Source: Dermatophagoides farinae
Taxonomy: Eukaryota; Arthropoda; Arachnida; Sarcoptiformes; Pyroglyphidae
DNA length: 64,000 bases
Direction of reading: 5' to 3'
Assembly: GCF_024713945.1 (NCBI RefSeq)
Contig: NC_134683.1
Span: 560,501 to 624,500 of the forward strand
The notes under the pieces are model-generated. The model searched no databases. It was not told the DNA's origin and was given only the letters and a program-made list of their open reading frames with translations. Shown piece by piece: positions 22,297 through 62,133 of the stretch; position 1 is the stretch's first letter, and the number at the start of each line of letters is the position of its first letter. A program made the position numbers and the translations under genes.

Positions 22297-24064
22297 ACAT
22301 TTATTCGCTTTAATACATTTTTTTTGTCTATTATAAATGTCAGGGAATTGTTATGGTTTTAATAAAATCATAACAATCCCACAAATCGAAGCCGAAATGA
22401 TCGAGCATCAAAGGATGCGACAAACATCGTTAAACATCCAAAAAAATAAAAATAATATTGTTATGAGAAAATTATAATAAATGTAAAACACAAACAAAAG
22501 ATACATTTTAGGGAATTGTTTTGTCTATTACGAAATAGACAAAACTATCATAACCGACATCAAAGGATGCGAAGAACATCCGAAAACTTTGAACATTCGA
22601 ATGATAAAACAAAACAAATTGTAATTCTGAAATTACTATATAAACGAATCTAAAAAGAATAATAAATTACGATAATTATTATTGGTGAATTTGAGTGAGA
22701 ACGTTTAATCATTGATTTATTTCTGATATAAATTCCACCTCTTAATTTAATCATCTGGATATCTGAATTATCGAATAATTGGATCAGATCGATTCAGATT
22801 TGTACTACATTTGTATGCATGGATTATTGATGTGAGGTGTGATGATAATATGATGACCATGAGGTGTGATCATCACCATTGAGAATAAACAAAAGGAAAA
22901 ATAACAAGAATTTCAACTTGGATTTTATTTAATTTTTTTTTTTTTTTTTTTTGAAATTAAACACCAGACGACAAACAAGAATACAGGAAACAAAAAAAAA
23001 GATAAATTTGAATATTTTTAAAAATTAATTTCAGCCATTTTTGATATTAACCCTTCGAGCTTATCTTTAACATTACATAGGCCAAATGTGATTGGTGAAT
23101 TGCATAACAGAGCTGATGCAGAAGCAAAAGACGAATGTGGATAATCCAATTTTCTAGGTGTTAACCATTCGTAATATTTGGTTTTTCCCCATGCATAATA
23201 CGATGATCCATCATATGCCAATGAAAAGTTCTGGAATTTTGAACACGCAATTTGTTGTACATTTTCAATTGGTATTTTTGTCAAATTTCGATTATTTTTA
23301 TCACCAAGACCAAGTTCACCATTGTAATTAGAACCACATCCCCAAAGCTGACCATTTTCGAATAAAAATAATGAATGATTGCTGCCAGCCACAATATCTT
23401 TGATTCGTGCTGAACAATTATTTGGAAATGAAACAAGAGATGGATCCCTTTTGTTGTAAAGAGTATTGAACCAGGAATAAATTTCTCCTTTATTAGTTAT
23501 TGATAAACTATGATTTAATCCACAGACTATGAGCTTGATATTTTTTAGGTTAGCAATCTGGATCATTCTTTCATATGATGATGTTTCATTACCAGTTATT
23601 TGACCAAAATCGAAAACATAACCATCTCGTTCTAGCATTAATGAATGATGCTTTCCACAAGCAATCATCTTGAAACGGCAATAATGGGGATTGATTAATT
23701 TGAAAGTATTATTAGTTTTCCATTTAGATTTAACATCGCTAGCTATGAATACATGTCCATTATTAGTTAGAATGGCAACAAAATCATAGCCAGAATCTAC
23801 TTGAACGATTTTCATATCATTTAAAATTGATATCTGTTGTGGTTTGTATATCATGTTTCAACGATAACCATGAGCATATTTTTTCACCATATATACATAT
23901 GTAGCTTCTTTGGTCATCAATAAAAATTGTTTTTTATGGAAATTTTCTTTGGAAATAAAAAAGCTGCATATCGAAACAACTGATTGGAGAAATTCTTGAT
24001 CAATGTTTTTGAAATCATCTTGAAATAACTTAATATCAATATATTCAGTCGGTGATCTTGCCAT
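22297..24064 (-). pseudogene. Broken RCC1-BTB gene 3: propeller only, BTB degraded and split
   Basis: The start region (MARSPTEYIDIKLFQDDF) is fine for about 60 codons. Then one extra TA in TATATA at about 23898-23906 shifts the frame, so EATYVYGEKICSW becomes EATYVYMVKKYAHGYR and stops. The rest of the RCC1 part is open from 23854 to 23018 but has lost blade material (DFGQITG follows the first repeats directly). It ends after PITFGL in unrelated residues, without a BTB domain. Degenerate BTB relics remain at about 22690-22805 (matching the GATTATCGAATAATTGG stretch) and 22297-22340 (TTATTCGCTTTAATAC), with about 350 bp of foreign-looking DNA between them. This is a host-gene relic and probably makes no working protein. 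Confidence 0.75.
22343..22577. repeat. Two related stem-loop units inside the relic of gene 3
   Basis: Unit 1 (22343-22420) starts GGGAATTGTTATGG and folds on itself (TTGTTATGGTTTTA with TAAAATCATAACAA, closed by GGG/CCC). It then has GCATCAAAGGATGC, itself a 5-bp hairpin. Unit 2 (22511-22582) starts GGGAATTGTTTTGTCTATT and pairs with AATAGACAAAAC, then has GACATCAAAGGATGCGA. The first ten bases and the downstream motif are shared, but the stems differ while still pairing. The units interrupt the BTB relic, so they probably belong to an inserted element of about 350 bp. The family is unknown. Confidence 0.45.
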
Positions 24065-32429: not shown

Positions 32430-32960
32430 TGTTGATGATCGAAAACACTCGAATTACACAACATTGACAAATAGAGAGAGAATAGCAAATGACTGAAAAT
32501 ATAGCCAACAACATTGAATTGAGCCAAAAAAAAAAAAAAAAAATAAAAGATTACTAATGTTGGATGAGAAACATTATTAGTGCTATCTTTTGTTATATTA
32601 TCGAACTTCTGAGTGTATTGTATTGTTTATTCAAGTTTTTCTCAATTTATACATATAATAATTGTATTTGTGAATGATCCCTAATGATTTGATTTTGAAC
32701 ACAGATATTTTTTAAATAAACGATCGTTGTTGCTTTAACAACTAAATAAATATATATGCGCAATAAAAAATATGAAAAGCCATAACACACAACACAAATA
32801 TGAACGTTTTTTTTTGAAAATAAAAGTGAAAAGATCAGATTTAGGCAATCAAAAATCATTTTTTTTATTTGTTTGCGATTGATTTATTATTGGTCAATCA
32901 AGAATAGAGTAAAAAAAGTAAATTTTCTTTTTTAGTTTTATGGAATCAAAAAATAATGAA
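32430..32960. repeat. Spacer type 1 (second copy), with leader of gene 7
   Basis: Nearly the same as 30294-30836 from the leader through the markers AAATAAACGATCG and GCCATAACACACAACAC, ending at the stop of gene 8. It also carries an A run at about 32525-32542. No gene. Confidence 0.8.
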
Positions 32961-34556: not shown

Positions 34557-35765
34557 TGTCGATGATCAAAAACACTCGAATTATAGACAGAAAATTGACC
34601 AACTATATGCGAGAATTAGTGACGACAGAAAAAAAATGATCAACAATTGCGTGACGTCATCTATTGTATATGTATGTCATGTATAGCGTTCTAGGTGGAC
34701 GAAGTTAACATACACAAATGCGTATTCACACACAACACAGATTTAAAAATATGAGAAAATTTATTATTGTAAAAATTAAAATACAGGTGTTGGAAAAATA
34801 AACAAAATGTTTGTGGTGATGATGGTGGTAAATTAAAACGGCCAGCCAACAAAAATGATTCGAGGTGATGATTTGATGATTGCTTGTGTGGCATGGACTT
34901 TTATATGATTTTTCCAACCGTCCAACTGCCAATCAGTTTGACCACGCCACTTGTCACGTAGACCATGTGTTTGGATGATTGTTTTGCTACTCATATGCCA
35001 GTCCCAGAAGGTGCATAGTAGCGAAAGTCACCTTACCATTGTACATGATCGAAAGAAGTGGTAAACAAATGGAAAGTTTTTCTCGGGCCCAAAAATAAGT
35101 TTGTAACACAGGGATACGTTTTTTCCACTCTGGTTTTTGCCAGTCCAATTCTTCGTTTTCTGGCCAATTCAAAAAGAATAAAATCGATGTCCATTTTAGG
35201 ACATCAAATGTTTATTTCTTACATAGAAATTCATAATGTTAACCCTAGAAAGGTAACCTACGTAAAATTTATGCGAATATACGACTGTTAAGGAAACCGA
35301 ACAGCCATTTTGGTCGATTTTTTGGTGGTTTTTATGTTGGAAAACCATTTTGAACTCCTTTTTATCAAAACTTAAGAAAAAGCGAAAAAAAATAAACTAA
35401 GCAGGTCATTTGAATTATTTTTGTAGATTTTTAATAAAATCACAATTTATTCAAATGAAAAAATACTTATATACAACCAAAAAATACACAAATATGAACA
35501 AAACAGTGAATGACCGTGACACAAACAAATCACTCTCAGTGTCGTAGTAAAACTGACATAACAATTTTGAATTTGAAATCGATTTATTGATCAAAATTGA
35601 AAAGAAAAATGATAAAGTAAATTTTTAATTTAATTTTTTTAAAACAATGGAATTATTGTCGAATAAATGATTGTTGGTGGTAAAACCTATCAAATCAAGA
35701 AAATTTAAAGAATTTTTACTGTTTTGTTCAAGATTGTGGCGATTTTGGGAAATACTTTTTATATG
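34557..35765. repeat. Spacer types 2 and 4 with leader of gene 8
   Basis: Leader at 34557-34625; the exon-like type 2 segment at 34833-35159, annotated separately; then DNA shared with 39960-40472, through the markers CATTTTAGGACATC and ACTGTTAAGGAAACCGAACA, into the 3' flank of gene 9 (35375-35765). In 35640-35765 a residue of the ancestral gene 9 3' end can still be read (CAAGAAAATTTAAAGAATTT), now outside the frame. Confidence 0.7.
34833..35159 (-). pseudogene. Exon-like segment, copy A (unrecognised gene fragment)
   Basis: Minus-strand DNA after a possible acceptor (TTTTTGAATTGGCCAG) encodes WQKPEWKKR, QTYFWAREKL and, after a disrupted middle, GLRDKWRGQTDWQLDGWKNH and IIKSSPRIIFVGWPF before a TAA. 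Three other copies (39679-39961, 44287-44466, 46421-46685) keep the same wording, so it descends from one coding segment. Copy A is disrupted in the middle. No family is recognised. Confidence 0.4.
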
Positions 35766-39444: not shown

Positions 39445-40472
39445 TGTAGATGATAAAAAACACTCGAATTATAGACACAATATTGACATACTATATGCGA
39501 GAATTAGTGACGACAGAAAAAAAATGATCAACAATTGCGTGACGGTTTGGACGAAGTTAACATACACAAATGCGTATTCACAAAACACAGATTTAAAAAT
39601 ATGAGAAAATTTAAAAATGAAAATACAGGTGTTGGAAAAATTTAAAAACAAAATGTTTGTGGTGATGATGGTGTTAAATTAAAACGGCCAGCCAGCAAAA
39701 ATGATTCGAGGTGATGATTTGATGATTGCTTGTGTGACATGGACTTTTATATGATTTTTCCAACCGTCCAACTGCCAATCGGTTTGACCACGCCACTTGT
39801 CACGTAGACCATGTGTTCGGGTGATTGTTTTGCTACTCATATTTACCACCGTCCTTGATCGAAAGTGGTGGACGAGTCCATGTTTTTATCGGGCCCTGAA
39901 AATAAGTCTGTGACACATGGTTTTTTCCACGCTGGTTTTTGCCAGTCCGATTCTTCGTTTCCTGGCCAATTCAAAAAGAATAAAATCGATGTCCATTTTA
40001 GGACATCACATGTTTATCGCATAGATATTTCTTACATAGAAATTCATAATGTTAATATACGACTGTTAAGGAAACCGAACAGCCATTTTGGTCGATTTTT
40101 TGGTGGTTTTTATGTTGGAAAACCATTTTGCACCCCTTTTTATCAAAACTTCAGAAAAAGCGAAAAAAAATAAACTAAGCAGGTCATTTGAATTATTTTT
40201 GTAGATTTTTAATAAAAACACAATTTATTCAAATGAAAAAATACTTATATACAACCAAAAAATACACAAACATTAACAAAACAGTGAATGACCGTGACAC
40301 AAACAAATCATTCACAGTGTCGTAGTAAAACTGACACAATTTTGAATTTGAAATCGATTTATTGATCAAAATTGAAAAGAAAAATTAAAAAGTAAATTTT
40401 TGATTTAATTTTTTTTGAAACAATGGAATTATTATCGAATGAATGATTGTTGGTGGTAAAAGTCATGAAAGT
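39445..40472. repeat. Spacer types 2 and 4 (second copy) with leader of gene 10
   Basis: The same order as 34557-35765: leader, exon-like segment (39679-39961), CATTTTAGGACATC and CTGTTAAGGAAACCGAACAG, then the type 4 3' flank. It is more compact than the first copy, so this spacer and the neighbouring gene duplicated as one unit. Confidence 0.75.
39679..39961 (-). pseudogene. Exon-like segment, copy B
   Basis: After the acceptor-like TTGAATTGGCCAG, the minus strand reads fragments matching copy D: a QKPAW-type start, CHRLIF in a shifted frame, then GLRDKWRGQTDWQLDGWKNH and IIKSSPRIIFAGWPF to a TAA at 39679. The frame is interrupted, so it is a relic. See copy D (46421-46685) for the most intact version. 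Confidence 0.4.
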
Positions 40473-41250
40473 TTAAAAAAATTTTGATGAAGATTGTTGG
40501 CGATTTTTGTCCAGATGACCAATCTTGTCATACAATTCCATGATTTCGTATTTGATAATGAATGTACGATATGTGGGCGTAGTTTGTTCATCCAAATCCT
40601 TCCGTATGAATGTTGCACAATATTTCATCAAACTTTCATCACCATAACAATTGGCCAGATCAACAAATTCGGTTATGTTTTGACGATTAATATGAATTTT
40701 TCCAGTATGTAACATCCATAGATATGCATAGTATGTTTCATACGAATAATCGGTAATGATCACTTGGTCATTTTCAATCCAATTGCCGGAAAACATTAGA
40801 CGATAATATTCTGATACAGATTTGAGATAACATTTACTCGCCTTAATATGTTTTTCGTCAATTAAAAATTCCACATCATAACTATCTTGATTATCGAATA
40901 ATTGGATGATTGATTTGCATTGATACGATATTGAATCAAGTGATCCGAATTCATGGATTATTGATGTGAGGCCAAATGTAAGTGGTGATGATAGAATCAT
41001 TGTCAACGCAGAAGCAAATGATGAATGCGAATCATCCAATTTTCTAGGTGATGACCATATGTCAGTGATTCTCAACCTTTTTTTTGTTGCGGCACACATT
41101 TTACGATTTCAAAATTTGGCGGCACACAAAGAAAAAGCACTGTGTAAAATAGATTATGATAATGATTTTAAATGTGCTAAATAAAATAATATATAATATG
41201 TACTACAAAAATAACAGTATGTAGCGTATTTGTTGTTAATTCGTTTATTC

Positions 41251-42765: not shown

Positions 42766-44012
42766 TCTAGAATCTAGCACTTTTTGTAAAACATTGATTA
42801 ATAAAAAATTGTTTAAAGAAGAATTGCTTTTATTTGTTTGTTTAATTATACTTATTTTTCCTATGTTGGTTCCACTACAAACAATTCGCACAACTATTAA
42901 TAGATATTTGACTAATCGAAGTACATGTTTTTGATTCAGGATTACCATAATATTCAATGTATCAAAACAAAAAATATTTTCATTTTATTAAATCTAAAAT
43001 TTGGCGGCACAATCTTAGAATTTCGCGGCACACAAAAGTGCCGCGGCACAGTGGTTGAGAATGACTGCCATATGTCATATTTGATTTTGCCCCATGCATA
43101 ATACGATGATCCATCATATGCCAATGAAAATGAATAAAATTTTGAACATGCGATTTGTTGCACATTTTCAATCGGTATTTTTGTCAAAATTAATCGATTA
43201 TTTTTATCACCAAGACCAAGTTCACCATGGTTATTAGAACCACATCCCCAAAGCTGACCATTTTCGAATAAAAATAATGAATGTTGATAACCAGCAACAA
43301 TATCTTTGATTCGGATATTGATCAAGTCAGCATTAGGATATGCAACAAGACATGGGGTGTTTCTGTTTTTTTGATCACCAAGACCTAATTGGCCACAATT
43401 ATTAATGTCCCAGGAATAAATTTCTCCTTTATTAGTTATTGAAAAACTATGTCGCATTCCACAAACTATGAGCTTGACATTTTCTAGTTTATCAATGTGT
43501 TTCATACTTTCATATGATTTTTTGTAACCAGTTATTTGACCATAACTATTATCGCCCATAGCGAAAACATGACCATCTTGTCGTAGTAATAATAAATAAT
43601 GCTGTCCACAAGCAATCATCTTGAAACGGTTATTACCGGTGTTGATTAATCGTAAATTATTATTCGTTTTCCAGTAATATTCAACATTGCTGGCTAGGAA
43701 TACTTGTCCATTATCAGTTAGAATCACTACAAAATTAGAGCCGTAATCTACTTGAACAATTTTCATGTCATTTAAAAGCGGTATCTGTTGTGGTTTAGTC
43801 ATTTTACGTTTCAACGATAACCATGAACATATTACTTTGCCATAAGCATATGTAGCTTCTTTGGTCATCAAGAAAAATTCCTTTTTAGAGCTTAGGGGAG
43901 TAGTAGTAAAGCTGAAAATCGAAATGACTGATTGGAGAAATTCTTGATCAATGTTTTCGAGATCATCTTGAAATAATTCAATATCGATATTATCAATCGG
44001 TGATCTTGCCAT

Positions 44013-46339: not shown

Positions 46340-46991
46340 TATCGATAATCAATACACACGAATTACAGAGACACAATATTGACAAACTATATGAGAGAAT
46401 TAGTGAAGATGGAAAAGAAATGATTCGAGGGGATGATTTGATGATTGCTTGTGTGGCATGGACTTTTATATGATTTTTCCAACTGTCCAACTGCCAATCG
46501 GTTTGACCACGCCACTTGTCACATAGACCATGTGTTCGGGTCATCTTTCGATACTCATATTTACCACCATCCTTGATCGAAAGTGGTGGACGAGTCCAAA
46601 GTTTTTTTCGGGTCCAAAAATAAGTCTGTGACACATGGCCTCGTTTTTTCCACGCTGGTTTTTGCCATTCCAATTCTTCGCATTCCTGACAATTCAGGAA
46701 AGAAAAAAAGAATTAAATAGCATAGAAACCAAATTTTTGTGACATTCGTTCGAAAATGTTATACACAAAAACGACAGTACTTTTCTTACCTCCTAATATA
46801 TTCTAGAAATTAGTGACAACAGAAAAGAAATGAATAGCCAAATTGAAAATAGCAAATGACTGAAAATAGCTAATCAAAGATCATTTTTAAACATTTTTTT
46901 TTATTTGTTTGCGATTGATTTATTATTGATTCATCAAGAATAAAGTAAAAAAAGTAAATTTTTAGTTTCATGGAATAAAAAAAAAGATGAA
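46340..46991. repeat. Leader of gene 12, exon-like segment copy D and flank of gene 13
   Basis: The gene 12 leader (46340-46420) runs straight into the exon-like segment (46421-46685), followed by the intron-like stretch (46686-46789) and the end of a type 1 spacer. The abrupt border at about 46420, where relatives continue with FVGWPF, marks a deletion or recombination junction. Confidence 0.7.
46421..46685 (-). pseudogene. Exon-like segment, copy D (longest open copy)
   Basis: After an acceptor-like CCTGAATTGTCAG, an open frame reads ECEELEWQKPAWKKRGHVSQ, TYFWTRKKLWTRPPLSIKDG, GKYEYRKMTRTHGLCDKWRG, QTDWQLDSWKNHIKVHATQA and IIKSSPRIIS, then runs into the leader of gene 12. A donor-like GGTAAG lies 104 bp upstream of the acceptor. 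The peptide is rich in Trp, Lys and Arg, with no signal peptide or membrane segment. I do not recognise it. It may be one exon of a second gene captured in the duplicated unit, or a relic of one. Confidence 0.5.
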
Positions 46992-49992: not shown

Positions 49993-50116
49993 TCATTTTT
50001 CAATGAATGATTGTTGATCATGAAACCAATCAAGAAATTTTAAAGAATTTTCATTATCACGCAAAAGACTGTCGGTGATTTTGGGCAACATTTTTTCGAT
50101 GCAAAGATGAGCAAGT
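49993..50116 (-). pseudogene. 3' end fragment of a gene 4-type RCC1-BTB gene
   Basis: About 41 codons match the last residues of gene 4 (LAHLCIEKMLPKITDSLLRD, NENSLKF, then SFIEK and TGA). The fragment stops where the hAT-like MITE (50138) and its flank begin; the rest of the gene is absent. Together with spacer type 3 on its left, it marks a third copy of the spacer-3/gene-4 unit. Confidence 0.7.
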
Positions 50117-50299: not shown

Positions 50300-50692
50300 G
50301 TCTAGAGACTCGAGGTGTCAAGCTCATATGACATTATTCTTGTACCTTGTGGTGCGACAGATAATTGTTCGAAGTTTTACAAAAATATTTCAAATGACGA
50401 CTGTTTAGGAGCGATTTGAAGAAAAGCGGCGAATACTAAGTTGATAATCATTATCGATGACCAATTGATGATGAATTTAATTATGAAAATTGATTGTTTT
50501 TTTCATTGTTATCCATATGGATGGTTCTGGTAAAGCGAAAAGAAAAATAAGCCAAGCAAGTCATTTGAATTGATTCGATTTATTGGTCAAAATTGAAAAG
50601 AAAAATAAAAAAGTAAATTTTTAATTTAATTTTTTTTAAACAATGGAATTATTATCGAATGAATGATTTTTGATGGTAAAAGTCATGAAAGT
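50300..50692. repeat. Spacer between the MITE and the three-module gene
   Basis: 50308-50430 is not matched elsewhere (GGTGTCAAGCTCATATGACA). 50435-50692 is spacer type 4 and forms the 3' flank of the three-module gene. No coding frame. Confidence 0.65.
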
Positions 50693-53600
50693 TTAAAAAA
50701 ATTTTGTTCGTTTTGATGAAGATTGTTGGCGATTTTTGTCCAGATGAGCAATCTTGTCATACAATTCCTTGATTTCGTATTTGATAATTAATGTACGATA
50801 TGTGGGCATAGTTTGTTCATCCAAATCATTCCGTATGAATGTTGCACAATATTTCATCAACCTTTCATCACCATAACAATTGGCCAGATCGACAAGTTCG
50901 GTTATGTTTTGACGATTAATATGAATTTTACCAGTATGTAACATCCGTAGATATGCATAGTATGTTTCATACGAATAATCGTTGATGATTACTTGATCAT
51001 TTTCACTCCAATTACCGGAAAACCTTCGACGATAATATTCCGATACAGATTGGAGATAACATTTACTCGCCTTAATATGTTTTTCGTCAATTAAAAATTC
51101 CACATCATAACTATCTTGATTATCGAATAATTGGATGATTAATTTGCATTGGTACGATATCGAATCATGTGATCCGAATACATAGATTGTTGATGTGAGG
51201 TCAAATGTTATTGGCGATTCTAGTATAATTGCCGATGCAGCTACAAATGATGTCGGATAACCATTCAATCTTCTAGGTGATGACCATTTGCCATATTTGG
51301 TGTTTCCACATGCATAATACGATGATCCATCATGTGTCAATGAAAAGTTGTGGAATTTTGAACATGCAATTTGCTGTACATTTTCAATCGGTATTTTTGT
51401 CAACTTTGATCGTTTTTTTTTATCACCAAGACCAAGTTCACCATTTTTATTAGAACCACATCCCCAAAGCTGACCATTTTCGAATAAAAATAATGAATGT
51501 TGGTAGCCAGCCACAATATCTTTGATGCGGGTTGAATCATCATTTGGAAATGCAACAAGACATGGGACGTCTTGGTCTTCTTTATCCGCGAGACCTAATT
51601 GACCACAATCATTAAGCCCCCAAGAATAAAATTCTCCTTTATTAGTTATTGATAAACTATGACCCGCTCCACAAGCTATCAGCTCGACATTTTCTAGGTT
51701 ATCAATGTGGATCATACTTACAAATGATGATTCTTTGTAACCAGTTAATTGACCACAACTATTATCACCTATAGCGAAAACATGACAATCTTGTCGTAGT
51801 AATAATAAATGATACTGTCCACAAGCAATCATCTTGAAACGATCATTATCGTTGGAAATCAATCGTAATGTTCTATACGTTTCCCATTTAGAATAAACAT
51901 CGCTGGCTAAGAATACTTGTCCATCATCAGTTAGAATTGCGACAAAATCATGGCCAGAATCTACTTGAACGATTTTCACATCATTTAAACGTGATATCCG
52001 TTGTGGTTTGCTCCTATCATGTCCCAACGATAACCATGAGCATATTTCTTCGCCATATGCAAATGTATATTCTTCGGTCATTAATAAAAATTCATTTTTG
52101 TCTTCCAATGTAAAGCTGAAAATCGAAACGATTGATTGGAGAAATTCTTGACCAATTTTTTTGAAATCATCTTGAAATAACCCAATATCGATATTTTCAG
52201 TCGGTGATCTTGCCATTATCTTGTTTCTGAGTTTATCGTGCAATTCGTTTATTTCGTATTTGTTAATCAATGGAAGATATGCGGGCGTAGTTTGTTCATT
52301 CCGTATGAATATTTTACAATATTCCATCAATCTTTTATCACCATAACAATTGGCCAGATCAACAAGTTCGGTTATGTTTTGATGATTAATATGAATTTTA
52401 CCAGTATGTAACATAAGCAAGTAGGCATAATATGTTTCATACGAATAATCGTTGATGATTACTTGGTCATTTTCACTCCAATTACCGGAAAACATTAGAC
52501 GATAATATTCCGATACAGATTTGAGATAACATTTATTCGCTTTAATACGTTTTTTGTCAATTATGAATTTCACATCATAACTATCTTGATTATTGAATAA
52601 ATGGAGGATTGGTTTGCATTGGTACGATATTGTATCATGTGATCCGAATACATAGATTGTGGATGTGAGACAAAATGTGAGTGCTGATGATAGAATCATT
52701 GCCGATGCAGCTACAAATGATGTTGGATGATCATCCAATTTTCTAGGTGATGACCATTTGCCATATTTAGTTTCGCCCCATACATAATACGATGATCCAT
52801 CATGTGCCAATGACAACTTATATTCTTTTGAACATTCCATTTGTTGTACATTTTCAATCAGTATTTTTGTCGGTGTTATTGATCGTTTAATATCATCACC
52901 AAGACCAAGTTCACCATCACTATTAGAACCAGATCCCCAAAGCTGACCATTTTCGAATAAAAATAATGAATGATACCTCCCAGCCACAATATCTTTGATT
53001 TGGGTTGAATTAGCATAAGGAAATGCAACAAGACATGGGGTGTTTCGGTTTTTTTCATCACCAAGACCTAATTGACCACAGTTATTATAGCCCCAGGAAT
53101 AAATTTCTCCTTTATTATTTATTGAAAAACTATGAACCACTCCACAAGCTATGAGCTCGACATTTTCAAGGTTATCAATGTGGATCATACTTTCATATGA
53201 TGATTCTTCATTACCAGTTATTTGACCACAACTATTATCACCCACAGCGAAAACATGACCATCTTCTCGTAGCATTAATAAATGCGACCATCCACAAGCA
53301 ATCATCTTGAAAAGATCATTACCGGTGTTGATTAATCGTAATGCTTTATTCGTCTTCCAATAATCAACGCTGACAAGGAATACTTGTCCTTCATCAGTTA
53401 GAATGGCAACAAAACGATAGCCAGAATCTACTTGAACAATTTTCTTATAATTTAAACGTGATATCCGTTGTGGTTTGGTCCTTTCATGTTCCAACGATAA
53501 CCATGAGCATATTTCTTCACCATATGCATATGTAGCTTCCTTCGTCATCAATAAAAATTGCATTTCAAAACATTGGGAAGGAAAAAAACTGAAAATCGAA

Positions 53601-55153
53601 ACGACTGATTGGAGAAATTTTTGATCGATGTTTTTGAAATCATTTTGAAATAACTTAATATCGATATTTTCATTCCGTGATCTTGTCATATTTCTGAGTT
53701 TATTGTGTAATACCTTAATTTCGTATTTGTTAATTAATGGAAGATATGTGGGCATAGTTTGTTCATTTAGATCATTTCGTATGAATGTTTCACAATATTT
53801 TATCAACCTATCATCACCATAACGATTGGCCAGATCAACAAGTTCGGTTATGTTTTGACGATTAATATGAATTTTAGCCGTATGTAACATACGTAGATAT
53901 GAATAGTATGCTTCATACGAATAATTCTCGATGGGTACTTGGTCATCTTCACTCCAAACACCGGAAAACATTCGACGATAATATTCCGATACAGATTTGA
54001 GATAACATTTACTCGCCTTAATACGTTTTTCGTCAATTATAAATTGCAAATCATAACTATCTTGATTATCGAATAATTGAGTAATTGATTTGCATTGGTA
54101 CGATATTGAATCATGTGATCCGAATATATAGATTGTTGATGTGAGGTCAAATGTGAGTGGTGAATTCAATACCTGAACTGATGCAAAAGAAAATGATGTC
54201 GGATGATCATCCAATTTTTTAGGAGATGATATATTGGTTTTGTCCCATGCATAATACGATGATCCATCGTACGCCAATGAAAGGTCTTTTGAACATGCAA
54301 TCTGTTGTACATTTTCAATCGGTATTTTTGTCGGTGTTATTGATCGTTTAATATCATCACCAATACCAAGTTGACCAAGTTCATTATAACCACATCCCCA
54401 AAGCTGACCATTTTCGAATAAAAATAATGAATGTCGGTCGCCAGCCACAATATCTTTGATTTGGGTTGAATTAGCATAAGGAAATGCAACAAGACATGGG
54501 GTGTTTCGGTTTTTTTCATCACCAAGACCTAATTGACCAAAAACATTATTGCCCCAGGAATAAATTTCTCCTTTTTTAGTTATTGAAAAACTATTATCAA
54601 ATCCACAAGATATTATCTCGACATTTTCTAGGTTATCAATGTGGATCATACTTTCATATGATGATTCTTCATTACCAGTTATTTGACCACGATTATTATC
54701 ACCCATAGCGAAAACATGACCATCTCGTCGTAACAATAATAAATGCGACCATCCACCAGCAATCATCTTGAAACGGTTATTACCGGTGTTGATTAATCGG
54801 AAAGTTTTATTCGTCTTCCATCTAGAATAATTGCTTGCTAGATAAACTCGACTATCATCAGTTAGAATGACAACAAAATTCCAGCCATAATCTACTTGAA
54901 CAATTTTCATATCATCTAGACAAGATATCCGTTGTGGTTTGCTTATATCATGTTCCAACGATAACGATGAGCATATTCCTTCACCATATGCATATGTAGC
55001 TTCTTTGGTCATCAATAAAAATTCTTTTTTAGAGCTTAGGGCAGTAATAAAACTGAAAATCGAAACGACTGATTGGAGAAAATCTTGGCCGATGTTTTCG
55101 AAATAATTTTGATATAAATCAACATAAATATTTTCATTCGGTAATCTTGCCAT
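50693..55153 (-). CDS. Three-module RCC1-BTB protein in one uninterrupted ORF (1486 aa)
   Basis: A single open frame of 4461 bp contains three complete leader-RCC1-BTB modules in tandem. Module 1, residues 1-488, starts MARLPNENIYVDLYQNYF. Module 2, residues 489-979, starts MTRSRNENIDIKLFQNDF after LHNKLRN. Module 3, residues 980-1486, starts MARSPTENIDIGLFQDDF after LHDKLRNKI and ends SSSKRTKFF. Each module has LWGCG- or LWGSG-type blades and a BTB (SYDLQFIIDEKRIKASKC, SYDVKFIIDKKRIKANKC, SYDVEFLIDEKHIKASKC). At both junctions the tail, stop codon, spacer and leader are gone and the next former start Met is in frame. Modules 1 and 2 share the block RNTPCLVAFPYANSTQIKD. The shared leader is present upstream of 55153. 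It would give a product with three propellers and three BTB domains, or could be cut later; the function is unknown. Confidence 0.85.
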   Translation of the reverse strand: MARLPNENIYVDLYQNYFENIGQDFLQSVVSIFSFITALSSKKEFLLMTKEATYAYGEGICSSLSLEHDISKPQRISCLDDMKIVQVDYGWNFVVILTDDSRVYLASNYSRWKTNKTFRLINTGNNRFKMIAGGWSHLLLLRRDGHVFAMGDNNRGQITGNEESSYESMIHIDNLENVEIISCGFDNSFSITKKGEIYSWGNNVFGQLGLGDEKNRNTPCLVAFPYANSTQIKDIVAGDRHSLFLFENGQLWGCGYNELGQLGIGDDIKRSITPTKIPIENVQQIACSKDLSLAYDGSSYYAWDKTNISSPKKLDDHPTSFSFASVQVLNSPLTFDLTSTIYIFGSHDSISYQCKSITQLFDNQDSYDLQFIIDEKRIKASKCYLKSVSEYYRRMFSGVWSEDDQVPIENYSYEAYYSYLRMLHTAKIHINRQNITELVDLANRYGDDRLIKYCETFIRNDLNEQTMPTYLPLINKYEIKVLHNKLRNMTRSRNENIDIKLFQNDFKNIDQKFLQSVVSIFSFFPSQCFEMQFLLMTKEATYAYGEEICSWLSLEHERTKPQRISRLNYKKIVQVDSGYRFVAILTDEGQVFLVSVDYWKTNKALRLINTGNDLFKMIACGWSHLLMLREDGHVFAVGDNSCGQITGNEESSYESMIHIDNLENVELIACGVVHSFSINNKGEIYSWGYNNCGQLGLGDEKNRNTPCLVAFPYANSTQIKDIVAGRYHSLFLFENGQLWGSGSNSDGELGLGDDIKRSITPTKILIENVQQMECSKEYKLSLAHDGSSYYVWGETKYGKWSSPRKLDDHPTSFVAASAMILSSALTFCLTSTIYVFGSHDTISYQCKPILHLFNNQDSYDVKFIIDKKRIKANKCYLKSVSEYYRLMFSGNWSENDQVIINDYSYETYYAYLLMLHTGKIHINHQNITELVDLANCYGDKRLMEYCKIFIRNEQTTPAYLPLINKYEINELHDKLRNKIMARSPTENIDIGLFQDDFKKIGQEFLQSIVSIFSFTLEDKNEFLLMTEEYTFAYGEEICSWLSLGHDRSKPQRISRLNDVKIVQVDSGHDFVAILTDDGQVFLASDVYSKWETYRTLRLISNDNDRFKMIACGQYHLLLLRQDCHVFAIGDNSCGQLTGYKESSFVSMIHIDNLENVELIACGAGHSLSITNKGEFYSWGLNDCGQLGLADKEDQDVPCLVAFPNDDSTRIKDIVAGYQHSLFLFENGQLWGCGSNKNGELGLGDKKKRSKLTKIPIENVQQIACSKFHNFSLTHDGSSYYACGNTKYGKWSSPRRLNGYPTSFVAASAIILESPITFDLTSTIYVFGSHDSISYQCKLIIQLFDNQDSYDVEFLIDEKHIKASKCYLQSVSEYYRRRFSGNWSENDQVIINDYSYETYYAYLRMLHTGKIHINRQNITELVDLANCYGDERLMKYCATFIRNDLDEQTMPTYRTLIIKYEIKELYDKIAHLDKNRQQSSSKRTKFF

Positions 55154-55323
55154 TATCGACGATCAAAAACACACGAATTATAATATTGACAAACTATATG
55201 AGAGAATTAATGACGGTGGAAAAGAAATAATCATTAAAAAATGACAAAACTATTTGACACTTAGACAATTTGTGATAATTACCTGTGATATTATCATCAT
55301 CATTTTCATTAAAAATTTATTGG

Positions 55324-58019: not shown

Positions 58020-58168
58020 CAGGGCCGGCCCAGAAAATCGCGAGACCTTGTGCAAAAATAGCGTGAAAAGTTGGAGCTGCGAGGCCCTTGCCAATACAGC
58101 GGAAAGGGGGAAGGCAGCGCGAGGCCTTGTGCTGTGCACAGTTTGCACAGGCACCTCGGCCGGCCCTG
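58020..58168. mobile_element. GC-rich hAT-like MITE at a rearrangement junction (149 bp)
   Basis: Ends CAGGGCCGGCCCAG and its inverted counterpart CTCGGCCGGCCCTG, about 11 bp perfect. The body is strikingly GC-rich (GCGCGAGGCCTTGTGCTGTG). CAG...CTG ends suggest the hAT superfamily, but the two 8-bp flanks (GTTATCAG and ACCATATG) differ. The right flank is RCC1-BTB coding DNA cut at codon about 55, while the left flank is unrelated. It probably marks a deletion or recombination between two element copies. Confidence 0.7.
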
Positions 58169-58333
58169 ACCATATGCATATGTAGCTTCTTTGGTCAATA
58201 AAAATTCTTTTTCAAGATCCTGAGTAAAAAAACTGAAAATCGAAACAACTGATTTTAGAAATTCTTGACCAATGTTTTCGAAATCATCTTGAAATAAATT
58301 AATATCAATACTTTCAGTCGGTGGTCTTTCCAT
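58169..58333 (-). pseudogene. 5' fragment of an RCC1-BTB gene (about 55 codons)
   Basis: It starts MERPPTESIDINLFQDDF below the shared leader and continues FENIGQEFLKSVVSIFSFF to EATYAYG, then is cut by the GC-rich MITE. One Met of the usual LLMTKEATYAYG is missing (LLTKEATYAYG). The propeller and BTB are absent. In the collinear block comparison it stands where the relic of gene 3 stands at 24064. Confidence 0.8.
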
Positions 58334-58907
58334 TATCGATGATGAAAAACACGAATTATAGACACAATATTGACAAACGAGAATATGCGAGAATAAGTGA
58401 AGGCATAAAGAAATAATCAGCAAAAAATGCCAAATCATTTGATACATTGACAATTTGTGATAATCACCTAGGACATTATTATTATCATCATCATCATCAA
58501 ACTTATTGATCAAAAATCAATTAATCAAATAATTTGGAAAATTAAGTGGGGATCGAATTTGTTATATGCATCATTTCAATGTAAAAACCATAACGACGAC
58601 AATAATGTCAACCAAAAAAAAAAAAAAAAAAAATTCTCGGAATCAAATCATGAGTGTCGCAATTGAAATGATAATTACAATTAATCAAACTCATTGAAAA
58701 TCATTATCAATTTGATGGAAAAAAAATCTTTTAATAGAACAAACAGGATTTTTGCATTAGATCATGGCCAATGTATTTTTTTCCAAGAACTGGATCAACA
58801 ACAATCATTGTTGATCGTTGAACCAATTGAGAAATTCAATAGATTTTGCATTGATAATTAATTTTATTAAAATTTTGGTGTAAGTAAAAAAATCAAATTA
58901 ATGAAAA
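58334..58907. repeat. Spacer type 3 (third copy), with shared leader
   Basis: Leader (58334-58395), CAT tract, run of about 20 A (58612-58632), then the same order of markers as 24065-24648 (AACCATAACGACGA, TCTCGGAATCAAATCATGA, ATCATGGCCAATGTA), including a small relic of an RCC1-BTB 3' end at about 58805-58850. Confidence 0.8.
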
Positions 58908-59294
58908 TCAATAGGATGATTTTTCAATGAATGATCGTTGATCATAAAACCAATCAAGAAATTTTAAAGAATTTTCATTGTCACGCAAAAGACTGTCGGT
59001 GATTTTGGGCAACATTTTTTCGATGCAAAGATGAGCAAGTTTGCCATACAATTCTTTAATTTGATATTTTCTAATTAATGAATGATATTTGTTCATTGTT
59101 TGTTCATTCAGATCATTCCGTATGAATGTTTTACAATATTGCAACAATCATTGATCACGATAACAATTGGCTAGATCGATTAGTTCGGCAATGTTTTGTG
59201 GATTGATTCGAATGGTGCCATCGTGCAACATACGTAGATATGCATAGTATGTATCATAGCTATACTCATTGATCATTATCTGATTTTTTTCCTT
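58908..59294 (-). pseudogene. 3' fragment of a gene 4-type RCC1-BTB gene
   Basis: About 128 codons match the last part of gene 4: KEKNQIMINEYSYDTYYAYL, RMLHDGTIRINPQNI, then after an in-frame TGA (the CGA/CGT Arg of RDQRL is lost at about 59148) LLQYCKTFIRNDLNEQTMNK to SFIEK, plus four extra codons. The fragment breaks at about 59294, where spacer type 5 begins. So everything from the gene 4 propeller to the gene 5 equivalent is missing from this block. Confidence 0.8.
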
Positions 59295-59324
59295 ATAGTT
59301 ATTGATAACGATAATGAGATGTAT

Positions 59325-61564: not shown

Positions 61565-62133
61565 TATCGATGAACGAAAACACTCGAATTGAAGACACAA
61601 TATTGACAAATGCGATATAGTTGCGATAGAGAGAGAATATCAAATGACTGAAAGCAAATAGCCAACAACATTGAATTGAGCCAAAAAAAAAATAAAATAA
61701 AAGATTACTAATGTTGGATGAGAAAACATTATTAGTGCTGTCTTTTGTTATATTTTTGAACTTCTGAGTATTGTATGTATGTTTATTCAAGTTTTTCTCA
61801 ATTTATACATATATAATAATTGTATTTGTGAATAATCCCTAATGATTTGATTTTGAACACAGATATTTTTTAAATAAACGATCGATCGTTGTCGCTTTTG
61901 CTTTTAATAACTAATAAAATAAATAAATATGCGCAATAAAAAATAACTGAAAAGCCATAACACACAACACATACGTAAGCTTTTTTTTTCTTGAAAATAA
62001 AACTGAAAAGATTAGATTTTGGCAATCAAAAATCATTTTTTTTTTATTTGTTTACGATTGATTTATTATTGGTTCCTCAAGAATAGAACAACAAAGTGAA
62101 TTTTTAATTTCATGGAATGAAAAAAACAATGAA
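61565..62133. repeat. Spacer type 1 (further copy), with leader of gene 16
   Basis: Same order as 30294-30836: leader, GCCAACAACATTGAATTGAG, A-tract, GATATTTTTTAAATAAACGA, GCCATAACACACAACAC, GGCAATCAAAAATC, then the 3' end of gene 17. Confidence 0.8.

Follow-up and report, generated by a model that had tools for sequence, protein, structure and literature searches.

A single open reading frame with three RCC1-BTB modules in a diversifying tandem array of the dust mite Dermatophagoides farinae

RCBTB proteins normally consist of one RCC1-like propeller and one BTB domain, and IBTK carries ankyrin repeats together with RCC1 repeats in a single RCC1 region. Passages of the literature describe RCBTB1 as co-precipitating with CUL3 and propose it as a CUL3 substrate adaptor (PMC10216830), place more than one RCC1-like domain in single chains of the large HERC proteins HERC1 and HERC2 (PMC6692442), and report that IBTK combines two BTB domains within a single chain and assembles a CUL3 ligase (PMC11090508). 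Another passage states that the tandem BTB domains of RhoBTB 'may form an intramolecular dimer', that the first of them binds CUL3 and that some ankyrin-BTB proteins have two BTB domains per chain (PMC1257465). In the F-box and MATH-BTB adaptors of C. elegans, strong positive selection is described for the domains that bind substrate and not for those that bind cullin, a pattern suggesting the degradation of foreign proteins (passage in PMC4334554, citing Thomas 2006). Here we analysed a 64,000-nucleotide stretch of the Dermatophagoides farinae genome (contig NC_134683.1, positions 560,501 to 624,500, forward strand; hereafter the window, which is free of N), in which one minus-strand open reading frame (ORF) contains three RCC1-BTB modules in succession.

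The ORF runs from 55153 to 50693 and comprises 1486 codons, the sole stop being terminal. It sits in a one-strand array (17917-63711, minus strand) that also holds 13 single units, each with an open frame across both the propeller and the BTB domain. Searched as a whole against Pfam, where eight families were listed at an E-value of 0.01, the ORF matched the RCC1-like domain (RLD, PF25390) at 1.4e-148 and BTB (PF00651) at 4.7e-44, and is therefore related to both beyond chance. When its modules (T1, T2 and T3) were scanned separately, each exceeded the family cut-offs for the RLD (164.7, 168.6 and 183.7 bits, respectively; cut-off 150 bits) and for BTB (55.0, 56.0 and 55.3 bits; cut-off 20.5 bits), with the BTB domain C-terminal to the propeller in all three. 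Seven of the 13 single units, scanned alongside, scored 160.3-175.3 bits for the RLD and 40.1-59.9 bits for BTB, a range that includes the BTB scores of T1-T3. The BTB domain of T3 also matched KLHL22 chains (4.9e-10), and an AlphaFold2 (AF2) model of T2 (predicted local distance difference test score, pLDDT, 70.7; predicted template modelling score, pTM, 0.60) had the propellers of UVR8, RCC1, RPGR and HERC as its closest solved folds. The original prediction of a stop-free frame with three full modules, joined at former start methionines near 53689 and 52216, is confirmed, the joints to the base: the modules start at methionines at 55153, 53689 and 52216, the latter two now being residue 489 (HNKLRN followed by MTRSRN) and residue 980 (NKI followed by MARSPT) of the chain.

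Each module on its own is an RCBTB protein by definition, whereas the whole chain, with three propellers and three BTB domains per ORF, is not. RCBTB1 and RCBTB2 share with every module the order of RCC1-like propeller, then BTB, but have only one of each where this chain has three. The large HERC proteins likewise carry several RCC1-like domains in one chain, and PDB titles mention a third RLD of HERC2; they are HECT ligases, however, whereas HECT is absent from the Pfam matches of the ORF at an E-value of 0.01, and three BTB domains are present instead. IBTK resembles the ORF in having more than one BTB domain in one chain along with RCC1 repeats, and differs in its ankyrin repeats, for which the ORF has no Pfam match at this E-value, and in lacking three whole modules. 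RhoBTB also has more than one BTB domain in one chain, but with a Rho GTPase domain (no Rho or Ras match here at the same E-value) and with adjacent BTB domains, whereas propellers lie between them here. Among the matches listed in a search of the literature, with protein databases outside its scope, there was no multi-module RCC1-BTB protein and no mite RCC1-BTB array, and the terms BTB, RCC1 and RCBTB are all absent from the main text of a dust-mite transcriptome paper (PMC12105342). RCC1-repeat relatives at three viral-contig and two genome-contig loci (all 26-33% identity), and 67 plasmid records (all <60% identity; general RCC1-repeat relatives), are uninformative on the fusion. The architecture had been predicted to be new. 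This holds, within that literature search, for three whole RCC1-BTB modules per chain; it does not hold for multiple RCC1-like domains or for two BTB domains per chain, which are already known from the large HERC proteins and from RhoBTB and IBTK, respectively.

The sequences at the two joints, compared with the leaders of single units, bear out the prediction that the tail end, stop, spacer and leader have been removed in frame, all of them being missing from both joints. T1 ends in NKLRN and T2 in DKLRNKI, each immediately preceding the next methionine. The bases AAACTC at the joints are part of a tail conserved in several units, but the AGAAA that follows was absent from this position in the single units compared, so that both joints have an identical tail breakpoint and the same five new bases. 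In its exact form, AAACTCAGAAA occurs only at the two joints when both strands of the window are searched, and arithmetic from base composition puts the recurrence of these five new bases at a shared breakpoint at about 1 in 400. Over their final 26 codons, T1 and T2 show 9 differences in 78 bases and resemble each other more closely than either resembles any of the eight other units compared.

These joints do not support the proposal that the architecture was 'made twice over by unequal exchange'. When homologous copies exchange in register, the tail, stop, spacer and leader are all retained and such joints cannot form; the first joint therefore needs an illegitimate deletion. The shared breakpoint and new bases in turn suggest that one joint probably formed once and that the second is its copy. 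The fusion could thus have originated through a single illegitimate deletion joining a BTB tail to the following start codon, a homologous exchange that duplicated the resulting joint, and gene conversion afterwards. Segment trees group T1, T2 and T3 variously, and their disagreement suggests gene conversion within the array. A clean recombinant origin of T2, with the head of T3 and the tail of T1, was considered and rejected, because the informative sites switch back and forth along the module and the segment trees are inconsistent. A joint-like spacer string, ACTCAGAA, near 32614 (also near 61769), was not used as a source because a match of 8 bases is close to what chance gives in 64 kb.

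Like the single units, the ORF possesses one leader and a single 3' end; the internal joints have neither. Its leader is 77-83% identical to those of units 20327 and 62134 and of the broken units 24064 and 58333, with shorter matches to three further units, and the 256 nucleotides downstream of T3 resemble the sequence that follows unit 17917 at 89%. From these flanks, the ORF would be read as one mRNA that begins with the leader of T1 and finishes at the 3' end of T3.

We then considered whether the frame is under selection, the open frame having been thought tolerated or used. Pairwise omega (Nei-Gojobori) was 0.79 for T1/T2, 0.72 for T2/T3 and 0.71 for T1/T3, against a median of 0.59 (range 0.37-0.97) over all pairs of 16 open modules, and the maximum-likelihood (ML) estimate was 0.586 among T1-T3 and 0.435 for all 16. 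With kappa and the tree kept fixed, an omega of 1 was rejected for T1-T3 (log-likelihood -3389.28 versus -3396.94, P = 9e-5), as well as for the propeller (P = 0.0036) and the BTB part (P = 0.03) separately. When the ORF was evolved neutrally in simulation, 45, 3, 0, 0, 0 and 0 of 400 frames were open at divergences (d) of 0.01, 0.02, 0.03, 0.05, 0.07 and 0.09, respectively. The frame accordingly looks maintained, in agreement with the prediction, and constraint on it is likely, though not proven.

Ranking sites by nonsynonymous diversity across 14 units brought out a pair of residues that is flanked by G and by H/F and recurs at the equivalent turn in one blade after another. A set of 19 codons was defined from this motif and from neighbouring loops (T2 numbering: turn pairs 91/92, 134/135, 184/185, 238/239 and 288/289; loops 151/153/154, 201/203/204 and 255/257/258) and compared with the remaining codons over seven close unit pairs, which overlap partly with the units used for ranking and in which T1/T2 and T3/17917 are close pairs, not proven sisters. 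The turn and loop codons showed 125 nonsynonymous versus 10 synonymous differences, a ratio of nonsynonymous to synonymous differences per site (pN/pS) of 2.88, above the neutral expectation (P = 1.5e-4). The remaining 289 codons of the propeller (545 versus 231, pN/pS 0.68) and the 95 BTB codons (144 versus 72, pN/pS 0.54) differ from this set by Fisher's test at 2e-9 and 4e-9, respectively. An earlier, slightly different site set gave pN/pS of 1.69 when the single units were taken without T and 2.44 for T by itself, and lower values of 1.07 and 1.62 once blade-6 positions 289-291 were added. The turn and loop codons are under diversifying selection across the array, independently of the fusion.

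Among the three modules themselves, the turn residues differ at 7/10 (T1/T2), 9/10 (T1/T3) and 9/10 (T2/T3) positions and the loop residues at 8/9, 8/9 and 4/9, compared with 60/284, 81/281 and 73/286 (21-29%) of the other propeller residues. In the AF2 model of T2, the turn pairs are predicted to lie between strands in each of five blades. By sequence alignment, CGWSH, CGVVH and AGRYH of T2 coincide with the three consecutive GWRH motifs of UVR8 (in the W285A chain used, the middle one is GARH), so that six of the 19 variable codons align with the W and R of these motifs. According to passages on UVR8, the motifs hold Trp 233, 285 and 337 and adjacent Arg residues that form the salt bridges of the dimer (PMC9546227, PMC5091643). 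The variable pairs therefore sit where a relative contacts protein. The array resembles the nematode MATH-BTB and F-box families in its many diverging copies and in an excess of change in the binding part, here the turns and loops, rather than in BTB; it carries an RCC1 propeller where those have MATH or F-box, and the ORF has no MATH match in Pfam at an E-value of 0.01. By this analogy it may work like the nematode MATH-BTB adaptor families without being a member of them.

We favour, with confidence that is evenly balanced, the reading that the ORF encodes a tethered, poly-specific receptor of the CUL3 type, as one gene and one chain in a fast-evolving adaptor array. The gene would yield a single polypeptide that carries three RCC1 propellers along with three BTB domains. 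The units of the array would be fast-evolving substrate receptors, in which the conserved BTB domain, to judge from RCBTB1 and RCBTB2, may recruit CUL3, and the same analogy would extend CUL3 binding to the modules of the ORF. Turns on one face of the propeller would diversify to bind changing targets, and since the likely target-contact spots differ between copies, one adaptor may grab several targets: the fusion would tether three different faces, presenting them to several targets or to one target at several points, with the BTB domains pairing inside or between molecules. A role in defence may be envisaged. The fuller version, in which a single-chain CUL3 receptor with separately diversified faces was fused in a defence-like adaptor array and has been kept by selection, is less likely than not, and we put it forward tentatively.

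Several observations weigh against this reading and the history proposed for it. Changes private to T1-T3 comprise 12 synonymous, 33 nonsynonymous and no stops, and the corresponding test is non-significant both for fewer nonsynonymous changes than neutral (P = 0.058) and for zero stops (P = 0.07), the direction being that of constraint; some of the divergence among the modules is older than the fusion, and much of the constraint on T1-T3 may predate it. The turn set and its P values are post hoc, because sites were ranked first and then redefined by motif. ML omega over whole domains is nearly equal between propeller and BTB (0.455 versus 0.423 in 16 units; 0.615 versus 0.567 in 10), so the contrast between the two lies in the turns and loops. 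As to the joints, the 11-base joint string with one mismatch allowed was found at 3 places versus 3.5 expected, a chance level that leaves the weight on the exact form and on the breakpoint common to both. A simple duplication of the joint would predict that the heads of T2 and T3 are mutually closest, which in their opening windows they are not, and gene conversion mixes the modules.

Part of this evidence would suit a young, tolerated fusion that is perhaps made, contributes nothing that the single units do not already provide and is heading for loss. Broken and partial units are common in the array, and both the non-significant private-change test and a constraint that may be older than the fusion fit this account. 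We nevertheless consider it rather unlikely: no neutral frame remained open at d of 0.03 or above, while the T1 and T2 tails next to the joint differ at 9 of 78 nucleotides, which counts against it if these differences are younger than the shared joint. It is improbable that the gain lies in avidity instead of new targets, with BTB domains pairing within the chain and extra propellers merely strengthening binding to a single target. The intramolecular dimer suggested for RhoBTB in the passage above (PMC1257465) would be a precedent for such pairing, but the three faces differ at most turn residues, and an AF2 model of BTB1-propeller2-BTB2 (pLDDT 60.4, pTM 0.50) yields no usable arrangement, with residues 1-83, 153-204 and 495-575 below 50 and most BTB parts below 50 or barely above.

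An assembly artefact that wrongly joined the modules is very unlikely, even though tandem repeats misassemble easily. Misassembly of repeats joins copies in register and would keep tail, stop and spacer, whereas the joints here break register, keep the frame and contain bases found at neither end of a single unit; moreover, T1-T3 differ from one another at 15-20% of bases over most windows and are therefore not a collapsed or repeated copy. The least credible alternative is that the region gives rise to separate products through internal promoters, initiation at the former start methionines or cleavage of the protein. The former start codons are indeed retained at both joints, but the leader common to single units is missing there and no stop precedes the joints, so internal starts would add products and not replace the long one. 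The tethered receptor, made as one chain, remains the reading that we prefer.

No introns are visible in the coding parts of the open units. Spacers between neighbouring open units measure 442-652 nucleotides in 7/13 intervals and are longer in the other six. Single-unit tails are of type A (EQVLPKVTDN...) or type B (DKNRQQSSSKRTKFF), apart from a different tail in unit 35766 and a shortened one in unit 37906; the two types are interchangeable along the array and occur with shortened forms, as if copies had exchanged ends. The array holds at least five broken units or fragments, which indicates that loss of units is common. Coordinates of the features are collected in Table 1.

Table 1. Features of the three-module ORF and broken units of the surrounding array (window coordinates)
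Feature	Position	Strand	Remarks
ORF, three RCC1-BTB modules	50693..55153	minus	1486 codons
Module T1: leader helix, RCC1-like propeller, BTB; tail lost	53690..55153	minus	488 aa
Module T2; tail lost	52217..53689	minus	491 aa
Module T3, retains short type-B tail DKNRQQSSSKRTKFF	50693..52216	minus	507 aa + stop
Joint T1/T2: AATAAACTCAGAAAT, then T2 ATG	53687..53704	minus	
Joint T2/T3: GATAAACTCAGAAACAAGATA, then T3 ATG	52214..52237	minus	
5' leader/promoter-proximal stretch before T1	55154..55303	minus	~150 bp homology
CAATAAATC, poly(A)-signal-like	50577..50585	minus	present in 4/4 type-B 3' ends compared
Hypervariable turn in T2, G-Y-R-F, residues 90-93	53408..53419	minus	
Hypervariable turn in T2, G-W-S-H, residues 133-136	53279..53290	minus	aligned with UVR8 GWRH
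Hypervariable turn in T2, G-V-V-H, residues 183-186	53129..53140	minus	aligned with UVR8 G(W285)RH
Hypervariable turn in T2, G-R-Y-H, residues 237-240	52967..52978	minus	aligned with UVR8 GWRH
Broken unit with in-frame stop, without BTB	23018-24064	minus	
Broken unit without propeller	40473-41099	minus	
Broken unit without BTB	42954-44012	minus	
Interrupted unit	58166-58333 + 58920-59300	minus	
Tail fragment	49996-50115	minus	

Foreign-looking sequence interrupts the unit at 58166-59300 (minus strand), and an ORF from 59827 to 59411, in or beside this unit, is RNase-H-like by eye, with no Pfam match at an E-value of 0.01. A 41-base string with TATAAAA (CATATAAAAGTCCATGCC...) occurs at 34867-34907, 39713-39753 and 46432-46472 (minus strand) with 0, 1 and 0 mismatches, where none is expected by chance; each copy lies shortly upstream of a single-unit leader (34556, 39444 and 46339, respectively), and the string may be a mobile element or a promoter that the units have in common. 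A second in-frame chimera was observed in the minus-strand ORF from 57760 to 55766, in which a C2H2 zinc-finger copy precedes an in-frame CD36-family region; its nucleotides 47-621 are a 92.5% copy of 2164-1605 (minus strand), from the C2H2 zinc-finger ORF at 468-2312. Rfam and tRNA scans gave no matches.

If expressed, the three-module ORF would show how a tandem family of ubiquitin-ligase receptors converts neighbouring copies into a multi-headed receptor, and it would offer a natural protein in which BTB pairing within one chain and the recruitment of CUL3 can be tested. Of broader reach than the fusion, perhaps, is the diversification of propeller turns across the array. Leaving the fusion aside, the array has the look of an arthropod equivalent of the diversifying adaptor families of nematodes, its RCC1 propellers being the part that varies, and the set of turn and loop codons names the residues to test.

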